Shown in pieces: positions 50,965 through 53,482 of a DNA stretch of 64,000 nucleotides. A program made the position numbers and the translations under genes. Origin of the DNA: Parvibaculum lavamentivorans DS-1. Lineage in GTDB: Bacteria > Pseudomonadota > Alphaproteobacteria > Parvibaculales > Parvibaculaceae. How positions within the stretch are numbered: the first letter of the stretch is position 1; every line of letters starts with the position of its first letter. The DNA lies in contig NC_009719.1 in NCBI RefSeq assembly GCF_000017565.1, positions 806,001 through 870,000 on the forward strand, read 5' to 3'. The notes under the pieces were generated by a model. That model ran no database searches, was not told the origin of the DNA, and saw only the letters and a list, made by a program, of their open reading frames with translations.

Positions 50965-52551
50965 TTGGCGGATAGCGCGGAAAACGACGCCCTGCTTGCA
51001 TTTCTGGCGATGCCGGAAACCTATGGCCTCGCTTCCGGCGAGACGGTGACGCGGATCGACACGCATGCCTCGCATGTCTTTCTTGCCGGCACCCGCGCCT
51101 ACAAGATGAAGAGGCCGGTGAAATTCACCTTTCTCGATTTCTCGACGCTTGAAGGCAGGCACGAAGCCTGCAAACGCGAACTCGACTTCAACCGCCGCAC
51201 CGCGCCGGAAATCTATCTCTCGCTTGTCCCCGTGCGCGAAACGGAAGAGGGTTTTCGTCTGGGCGGGGATAAGGGCGAGCCTGTCGAATGGCTGGTCGAG
51301 ATGAAACGCTTTGGCGGCGAGGGGCTTCTCGCGGCGAAGGCGGAGCGGGGACAACTTTCGCTCGACCTGGTGGAAGAGCTGGCGGCGGATGTGGCGGCCT
51401 TTCATGCACGCGCGAAGGTGCATCGCGATTTCGGCGGTGCGGATAATTTCGCGAAGATCGTCGCGGGAAGCGAAACCGACATGCAGGCGAGCATCGGTCC
51501 CGTTTTCGATGCCGAGCAGGCGGCGCGTGTCACCCGGCGCAGCAAGGAACTGATCGAGGAACATCGGGCGCTTCTCGATGCGCGGCGCGACACCGGCTTC
51601 GTGCGCCACAGCCACGGCGATCTCCACCTCGGCAATGTGACGGAAATCGACGGGCGGCCCGTCATTTTCGACTGCATCGAATTCAGCGACCGCATCGCGC
51701 GCATCGACGTGGCCTATGATCTCGCCTTTCTTCTGATGGATCTCGGCTTTCGCGCGGAGAGCGACGAGCGGCTGGCCGGCTATGCCAATCGCGCAATGAA
51801 CGTCTATCTCGACCATGTGCCGCAGGCGGAAATCGGCGCGGCCACCGAGGGGCTTGCGCTGCTGCCGCTCTTCATGGCGACGCGCGCGGTGGTGCGCGCC
51901 AAGGTGACGGCGGTGCAGGCAACGGGTGAGGACTCGAAAGAGAAGAGGAAGCTCGCACGCGCCTATCTCGATTTCGCGGACCGGCTGCTGGAGGCGAGAC
52001 CGCCGCGCCTCGTCGCGGTGGGCGGACTTTCGGGCACCGGCAAGTCGACGCTGGCAAAGGCACTGGCGGCGCTTATCGGCGGCGCGGCGGGCGCGGTGCA
52101 TATCCGCTCCGACACGGTGCGGAAGCGCCTCTTCGGCGTCGCGCCGCTGGAGCGGCTGCCGGAGGAAGCCTATGCGGAAGGCGCGGGCGAGCGTGTTTAT
52201 GCGGAGATGATGCGGCTTGCGCGCCTGTCGCTCGGTGCCGGGATGAGCGTTGTGGTGGACGCCGTATTCGCGAAGCCGCAGGAGAGGGTGGAGGGCGAAC
52301 GGCTTGCGCGCGAGGCCGGCGTGACGTTTGACGGGCTCTGGCTCGACGCGCCGGCGGAGGTGCTGGAAGCGCGCGTGGCCGCACGGGAGAAAGAGGGCGG
52401 CGATCCCTCCGATGCAGGCGTGGCGGTTCTGAAGCGGCAACTGGCCTACGACCTCGGCCGGATGAAATGGCTGACTGTGGATGCATCGGGCACGCCGGAC
52501 GAGGCGCTGGCGGCGGCAGCAGGTTCTATCGACATCAACCCGCTGTCGTAG
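50965..52551 (+). CDS. fusion of aminoglycoside phosphotransferase-like and AAA/kinase domains
   Basis: 528 residues. N-terminal APH-like kinase: Brenner motif HSHGDLHLGNV then DCIEFSDRIARIDVAYDLAFLLMDLG. C-terminal P-loop domain: VGGLSGTGKSTLAKALAALI with a YvkC/zeta-like VDAVFAKPQERVEGERLA. The fused arrangement is known in many proteobacteria but its substrate is not. Start TTG 50965 (GGGA just upstream); ATG 51010 (MPETYGLAS) is an alternative. Right after the CDF gene. Confidence 0.9.
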   Translation: MADSAENDALLAFLAMPETYGLASGETVTRIDTHASHVFLAGTRAYKMKRPVKFTFLDFSTLEGRHEACKRELDFNRRTAPEIYLSLVPVRETEEGFRLGGDKGEPVEWLVEMKRFGGEGLLAAKAERGQLSLDLVEELAADVAAFHARAKVHRDFGGADNFAKIVAGSETDMQASIGPVFDAEQAARVTRRSKELIEEHRALLDARRDTGFVRHSHGDLHLGNVTEIDGRPVIFDCIEFSDRIARIDVAYDLAFLLMDLGFRAESDERLAGYANRAMNVYLDHVPQAEIGAATEGLALLPLFMATRAVVRAKVTAVQATGEDSKEKRKLARAYLDFADRLLEARPPRLVAVGGLSGTGKSTLAKALAALIGGAAGAVHIRSDTVRKRLFGVAPLERLPEEAYAEGAGERVYAEMMRLARLSLGAGMSVVVDAVFAKPQERVEGERLAREAGVTFDGLWLDAPAEVLEARVAAREKEGGDPSDAGVAVLKRQLAYDLGRMKWLTVDASGTPDEALAAAAGSIDINPLS

Positions 52552-52594
52552 AAGACTGAGCAGGCGTTGCGTCGCCGATGAAGTCAGTTGTCAC

Positions 52595-52623
52595 TTGACA
52601 ACCAGACTCTATCCTCCTACATT
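52595..52623 (+). promoter_or_regulatory. sigma-70-type promoter of the HicA-like module
   Basis: TTGACA (52595-52600), spacer of exactly 17 bp, TACATT (52618-52623). The expected transcript start (~52630) is only ~5 nt before the ATG at 52635, so the mRNA would be nearly leaderless, with GAGG (52627-52630) mostly upstream of it. Confidence 0.6.
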
Positions 52624-52634
52624 CACGAGGCAAA

Positions 52635-52895
52635 ATGGCGGCCCGCGCACGTCACCCCCACAAAGAGATCGAGCAGGCTGTTCGATATGCGGAGGAAGCC
52701 GGGTGGCGCTTCAGCAAGGGCCGGGGGCATTGTTTCGGTTATCTCCGTTGTCCCTGGAACGACGATACCTGCCGCTGCGGTGAATTCTGCCAGTTCTCGA
52801 TCTGGAGTACGCCGCGTTCGCCCGAGAACCACGCGAGACAGATCCGGCGGCTCGTCGATCATTGCAAATACCGGCAGGCCGACGCTGGCCCGTGA
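52635..52895 (+). CDS. HicA-like small protein (putative toxin of a divergent HicAB module)
   Basis: 86 residues. The core AVRYAEEAGWRFSKGRGHCFGYLRCP resembles the HicA pattern of GW...K/R-x-G-x-H followed by a beta strand; in HicA that His is the catalytic residue of an mRNA interferase with a dsRNA-binding fold. Four cysteines (CPWNDDTCRCGEFC) form a compact cluster, perhaps a zinc site, which is not usual for HicA. The C-terminus IWSTPRSPENHARQIRRLVDHC is basic. Promoter and gene order (toxin first) fit a TA pair. Function is inference; toxicity untested. Confidence 0.65.
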   Translation: MAARARHPHKEIEQAVRYAEEAGWRFSKGRGHCFGYLRCPWNDDTCRCGEFCQFSIWSTPRSPENHARQIRRLVDHCKYRQADAGP

Positions 52896-52907
52896 AGGGA
52901 GAAACGC

Positions 52908-53432
52908 ATGAAGCTCTACGAGTTCGAGCTGATCTTCTCGCTGCCCGACAGTGCCGGGAGCGCCGATGACATTGTCGATGCGCTTTTCGAAGCAGGCTGC
53001 GACGATGCCGTTGCGGGGATCGGCAAGCGCGGCCGTATTGCGCTCGGCTTCTCGCGCGAAGCAGCGAGCGCCGAACAGGCCATGAGCTCGGGCCGCAAAC
53101 AAGTGTGCAAGGCCGTGCCGGGGGCGGAACTGATCGAAGCAAAGCCCGATCTCGTCAATCTGAGCGAGATCGCCGAGATTCTCGGCTACACACGGCAAAA
53201 TATGCAGAAATACGCAGCAAATCCCGGAAAGACGGTTTTCCCGTCACCCGTCCATAGCGGCGCGCCGGACATATGGCATCTCTACGACGTCCTCTCATGG
53301 TTGCGCGGAGAAAGGAACGTGGCGGTGGACGAGGCTTTGATCGAAACGGCGCTTGCCGCCGCCCGTCTCAATGCCGAGGCACGGAGCCGCCATTTCGAGG
53401 CCGCAAGCGCCGGCCGCAGGCGGGCCGGGTGA
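52908..53432 (+). CDS. HTH protein downstream of the HicA-like gene (putative HicB-like antitoxin/repressor)
   Basis: 174 residues. The N-terminal ~85 residues (FELIFSLPD, IVDALFEAGCDDAVAGIGKRGRIALGFSREAASAEQA) could be a degenerate HicB-type fold. The C-terminal part has a clear winged/AlpA-like HTH: LSEIAEILGYTRQNMQKYA, then FPSPVHSGAPDIWHLYDVLSWL. ATG 52908 follows AAGGGAGA by ~5 nt and lies 12 nt after the small gene. It probably represses the promoter at 52595; the antitoxin role is inference from gene order and fold pattern. Confidence 0.72.
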   Translation: MKLYEFELIFSLPDSAGSADDIVDALFEAGCDDAVAGIGKRGRIALGFSREAASAEQAMSSGRKQVCKAVPGAELIEAKPDLVNLSEIAEILGYTRQNMQKYAANPGKTVFPSPVHSGAPDIWHLYDVLSWLRGERNVAVDEALIETALAAARLNAEARSRHFEAASAGRRRAG

Positions 53433-53482
53433 ACGCGCTTCCCGCGCTGGCGGCGGCGCGCGGCTTCCTCTAGATTGCGGCC

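Follow-up and report, generated by a model that had tools for sequence, protein, structure and literature searches.

Locus Organization

The 64,000-nucleotide stretch of the Parvibaculum lavamentivorans DS-1 genome analyzed here (NC_009719.1, positions 806,001 to 870,000; the window) contains two short open reading frames (ORFs), here called A (86 aa) and B (174 aa), both on the + strand and separated by an intergenic gap of 12 nt. An earlier note on this DNA had picked them out as a possible toxin-antitoxin (TA) module with a promoter of its own. A and B are real genes, since both are under purifying selection among the Parvibaculum copies compared (Ka/Ks 0.04–0.11 for A and 0.07–0.27 for B) and both match profile models far beyond chance. 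The two adjacent genes are matched over nearly their full length by the PADLOC models PDC-M06A (5.7e-40) and PDC-M06B (1.1e-60), and no difference from PDC-M06, a two-gene defence candidate of PADLOC-DB, was found. The pair is probably a mobile type II TA module, in which a HicA-like ribonuclease toxin would be combined with an autorepressing antitoxin that is not HicB. The features of the locus, in window coordinates, are as follows.

52587..52602, no strand: operator, a 16-bp palindrome GTTGTCACTTGACAAC with 7-bp arms and a 2-bp centre, proposed binding site of B (sequence, homologue comparison)
52595..52600, +: -35 element TTGACA, within the right arm of the operator (sequence; homologues arranged alike)
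52618..52623, +: -10 element TACATT, spaced 17 nt from the -35 element (sequence)
52635..52895, +: gene A, 86 aa, HicA-like (dsRBD-like, alpha-beta-beta-beta-alpha) predicted ribonuclease toxin; PADLOC PDC-M06A, PHROG 5923
52728..52730, +: codon of the invariant His32 in the turn before beta2, proposed catalytic residue, at a position equivalent to His24 of Burkholderia pseudomallei HicA (alignment, model)
52749..52790, +: four-Cys knuckle C39-x6-C46-x-C48-x3-C52 between beta2 and beta3, possible metal site (alignment; low-confidence loop in the model)
52908..53432, +: gene B, 174 aa, predicted antitoxin and autorepressor; PADLOC PDC-M06B, PHROG 2620
52908..53150, +: B residues 1–81, ferredoxin-like beta-alpha-beta-beta-alpha-beta domain with a GCDDA loop, proposed to neutralize the toxin (model; occurs alone in phage contigs)
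53148..53318, +: B residues 81–137, winged helix-turn-helix (HTH) (structure match to 7lw0_A)
53331..53426, +: B residues 142–173, long C-terminal helix, possibly a dimerization element (model)

Both ORFs, their spacing and the promoter lie where the earlier note had placed them, and the TA architecture that it described is supported. Its idea of an undescribed system has to be given up, because the pair is already the candidate PDC-M06, and the copy on Cyrano, a phage-plasmid of E. coli LF82, has been annotated as a HicA toxin with a putative HicB antitoxin (PMC9928086). PDC systems are candidates of a guilt-by-embedding screen and are described as unvalidated (PMC12988326). The PADLOC entry for PDC-M06 gives no mechanism, and no published mechanism for the AB pair was found in the literature. 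What is new here is the palindromic operator, the inactivation of the toxin gene only, with the antitoxin gene kept, a chromosomal site at which the pair was gained and lost repeatedly, and the orphan N-terminal domains of B in phage contigs that have no A.

Protein A and the HicA Fold

The first protein had been taken for a relative of HicA, and this is supported by several comparisons. The model of A (pLDDT 81) has helices at residues 10–21 and 63–75 and strands at 25–28, 33–38, and 53–57, that is, the alpha-beta-beta-beta-alpha topology of HicA. A Foldseek search against PDB puts B. pseudomallei HicA first (6g26_F, prob 0.77, E 0.43), and VIA ranks 5yrz_B from a TA complex of Streptococcus pneumoniae highest (Z 4.7, rmsd 2.6, 57 residues). 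Both matches are weak; the VIA list holds the further HicA structures 6g26, 1whz, 6hpb, and 4c26. The hhalign score of A against a HicA alignment is 24.8, whereas 100 column-shuffled controls reach no more than 16.0.

The residues invariant among 34 aligned A sequences are W24, H32, C39, T59, P60, A67, and C77, and the conserved G-W, H32, and T59-P60 sit at HicA-like positions. H32 directly precedes beta2 and corresponds to His24 of B. pseudomallei HicA, which is required for toxicity (PMC3969222); the conserved Trp and the Pro after beta3 also have their counterparts. In the model, H32 lies at the essential-His position of HicA in the beta1-beta2 turn, and a catalytic role is predicted for it. 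A thus seems to be a HicA-like protein and a predicted ribonuclease toxin, its RNase activity being suggested by analogy with HicA.

A differs from HicA in lying under Pfam detection and in an extra insert between beta2 and beta3, which is often Cys-rich. The Pfam search of A returned no family at E up to 10, HicA_toxin (PF07927) not reaching its cut-off, and the PADLOC HicA-like model matches A only at 0.028. A search of the host genome with PF07927 gave no match either. The GW...GRGH motif and the four cysteines C39, C46, C48, and C52 noted earlier are indeed present in the window copy, but the cluster is not a constant of the family. The planctomycete and SSU5-type branches, including the A copies of Cyrano and SSU5, have neither C46 nor C48, so that C39 is the only universal one of the four and C39 and C77 are the only invariant cysteines. 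The four cysteines as a defining catalytic site were rejected, since whole branches lack C46 and C48.

Protein B is Not a Worn HicB

The N-terminus of B had been suggested to be a worn HicB fold, which is not what the model shows. With pLDDT 94.9, it consists of a beta-alpha-beta-beta-alpha-beta domain (1–81), a winged HTH (81–137), and a long helix (142–173). The N-domain matches ferredoxin-like folds (Z ~6), and the winged HTH best matches a DNA-packaging chain, 7lw0_A (Z 7.0, rmsd 1.8, 53 residues). HicB, the reference for this comparison, has the topology of a partial RNase H fold (PMC10865869), which B lacks. The hhalign score of B against HicB is 21.2, at the noise level of the shuffles (maximum 20.8). 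With a confidently predicted ferredoxin-like N-domain and a profile score no better than shuffles, B as a worn HicB was rejected. HicB structures are missing from the match lists of B, but this was given no weight in the rejection. Pfam and NCBIfam searches gave no useful match for A or B, and PDB sequence searches with the family profiles of A and B gave chance matches only.

AB nevertheless shares much with HicAB (PF07927; Gerdes classes 3 and 4, PMC10865869). Both are toxin-first bicistrons, and in both the small alpha-beta-beta-beta-alpha toxin conserves a His in the turn from beta1 to beta2 and has a Pro following beta3. Both antitoxins have a C-terminal DNA-binding domain and a palindromic operator at the promoter; in B this HicB-type trait includes predicted binding to its own promoter. 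Among the 14 described HicA classes, none is paired with a B-type partner.

A Predicted Operator on the -35 Box

Of 52 non-redundant loci, 40 have the palindrome TTGWC-N4-GWCAA in the 200 bp preceding A, whereas 0.015 would be expected from shuffling. In the window, the operator GTTGTCACTTGACAAC reads GTTGTC-N4-GACAAC, and its right arm includes the -35 box. The TTGWC-N4-GWCAA palindrome occurs from Alphaproteobacteria to a cyanobacterial plasmid and Thermoleophilia. In planctomycetes and phage-plasmids there is a variant with the -35 box in the left arm; that of Cyrano is TTGAC-N4-GTCAA, and no operator palindrome was detected upstream of A in SSU5. If B acts as proposed, this would be a rare case of a TA operator conserved across phyla, apparently owing to its being built around the -35 box. 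In the 3.9-Mb host genome the operator is single-copy, upstream of A, and a stricter form, GTTGTC-NN-TTGACAAC, is confined within the genus to the AB site of carriers. From this conservation and uniqueness, it is strongly inferred that B, as a dimer, binds the palindrome and represses its own operon.

The predicted transcription start lies about 5 nt upstream of the A start codon in the window copy, and in 31 of 34 loci it lies at most 14 nt from the A gene or inside it, although with some A start codons picked by script these distances are approximate and single values rough. The P2 promoter of E. coli hicAB, which HicB represses, gives HicB without HicA (PMC10865869). Since the regulated promoter is very close to the A start codon, transcripts from it likely favor B over A in a similar way to P2.

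Linkage and Toxin-Only Loss

B adjoins A in all 94 A-bearing loci of the first set. An even draw of 385 genomes from the host's class contains 12 with A, and B adjoins it in 12 of 12. Homologues of A lacking the HTH partner, a check proposed by the earlier note, were not seen in either set. B without A takes three forms in the same draw, namely a broken copy, the N-domain by itself, and a match to the HTH only. Distances among A and among B sequences are correlated (mirror-tree, r 0.85, against at most 0.27 in 2000 permutations), which speaks for co-evolution of the two proteins.

Inactivation goes in one direction. A is disrupted by a single in-frame stop codon while B stays open in L061:4995-5252 and L128:3678-3923, and in L111 B is intact and A absent. 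A with a broken or missing B was not seen among the loci examined. This asymmetry is the expectation if A is harmful and B protective.

Proposed Mechanism and Alternatives

In the proposed mechanism, A, as a ribonuclease of HicA-like dsRBD fold, would cut RNA and stop translation, and the ferredoxin-like N-domain of B would bind and block it. The winged HTH of dimeric B would sit on the palindrome containing the -35 box and turn the operon off, and the transcripts made would favor B, as with hicAB P2. Plasmid loss or phage attack would free A, through loss, titration or degradation of B. Plasmids and phage-plasmids retain the module, which moves into and out of chromosomes. If this is true, HicA-like toxins can be paired with an antitoxin of unrelated fold, and the unexplained candidate PDC-M06 gains a mechanism.

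Several points weigh against this reading. The structural scores of A against HicA are weak, and unrelated aminotransferase domains score nearly as high in VIA, so that the fold match alone is not decisive. The hhalign match to HicA spans helix 1 and strand 1 only, and A does not conserve the glycine (Gly22) that HicA has at -2 from the histidine. As said above, the distances from promoter to start codon are approximate, and no experiment on toxicity, neutralization, RNase activity or DNA binding of AB was found.

A and B might instead form a two-part regulator or a recombination directionality (excisionase) system, with B an AlpA-like regulator and A its nucleic-acid-binding cofactor. Several points speak for this: PHROG 2620, to which B belongs, is labelled excisionase and transcriptional regulator, the SSU5 pair, homologous to AB and in the same gene order, is annotated as a hypothetical protein and an AlpA-like regulator, and the HTH of B is winged, of the packaging/excisionase type. 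However, the phage-plasmid and conjugative-plasmid records examined show no integrase annotation next to AB, and the sole operator of the host genome, upstream of A, implies that there is no regulon. Knocking out A while keeping B, and the HicA-like fold of A with its invariant His, also do not fit, and we consider such a system improbable. Even less credit is given to a genuine HicAB module with a HicB too diverged to be recognized. It would account for the HicA-like A, the toxin-first order and the C-terminal HTH of the antitoxin, as in Gerdes class 3, and for the Cyrano pair, likewise homologous and collinear with AB, having been published as HicA/HicB, but the HicB profile scores B hardly above its best shuffle.

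A last alternative concerns the role and is compatible with the molecular mechanism proposed: the TA pair may chiefly stabilize plasmids and phage-plasmids and not defend against phages. Every E. coli copy is on a plasmid, and the Rhodobacterales copies lie between type IV secretion and relaxase genes. On the other side, the chromosomal copies come and go at a single site, PADLOC counts the pair among its defence candidates, and some neighbors match HORMA, TRIP13, NucC, and type I restriction, albeit with no background control. Taken together, chiefly stabilization is a serious contender, to which we give somewhat under an even chance. The HicA-like toxin and its non-HicB antitoxin may thus serve plasmid maintenance or anti-phage defence.

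Distribution and Mobility

In Parvibaculum, AB is flanked by a kinase-like gene and an SDR gene. The interval between these genes is 9–151 bp in non-carrier sisters and about 930 bp in carriers; in G009 it was measured as 750 bp, where the kinase frame runs on into the cassette. Carriers make up 6 of 21 Parvibaculum genomes, and at least five changes are needed on the tree of the flanking genes. Window positions 52552–53482 are a presence/absence site in the genus, at which integrase and end repeats were not seen. At silent sites, the window A is nearer to A of G017 (dS 0.42) than to that of the sister species G011 (dS 0.65), which hints at transfer of A between species.

Outside the genus, AB is found on conjugative plasmids of Rhodobacterales, between type IV secretion and relaxase/transfer genes, on one cyanobacterial plasmid, and on SSU5-type phage-plasmids. 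Carriers of PDC-M06 include phage-plasmids of E. coli and Enterobacter; among 5426 E. coli genomes, 110 have AB, in each case on a plasmid.

Orphan B N-Domains in Phages

Seven viral contigs (L140, L141, L142, L143, L144, L146, and L147) have the N-domain of B without the HTH, and no A is present in these records, some of which are fragments. Flanking terminase, head-closure, and tail genes suggest that at least three of them are phages. The orphan N-domains tested match PDC-M06B across its N-domain. Phage genomes searched with the N-domain of the window B gave no match, and with a phage-derived N-domain as query gave SSU5 and Cyrano only.

The orphan domains could be counter-defence antitoxins, and they could also be remnants or be otherwise used. 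In the fullest version of the former idea, the ferredoxin-like N-domain would represent an antitoxin fold new to HicA-like toxins, and phages would carry this domain by itself, with neither DNA-binding domain nor toxin, to neutralize A during infection and so disarm an anti-phage module. We hold this to be rather unlikely as a whole. Antitoxin domains carried on their own by phages would open the defence role to a direct test. In two related viral contigs (L109:3736-4240 and L110:622-1126), a degraded A is followed by a B that ends after the N-domain.

Neighboring Genes

In some genomes (e.g., L025), neighbors of AB match defence proteins, namely HORMA, TRIP13, NucC, type I and type IV restriction, PD-Lambda-2, and PDC-M38B; these are raw matches without background control. 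In the window, positions 50965–52551 encode a 528-aa protein, which by eye joins an aminoglycoside-phosphotransferase-like domain with a kinase-like ATP-binding domain in one chain, and which weakly matches the defence model mad8.
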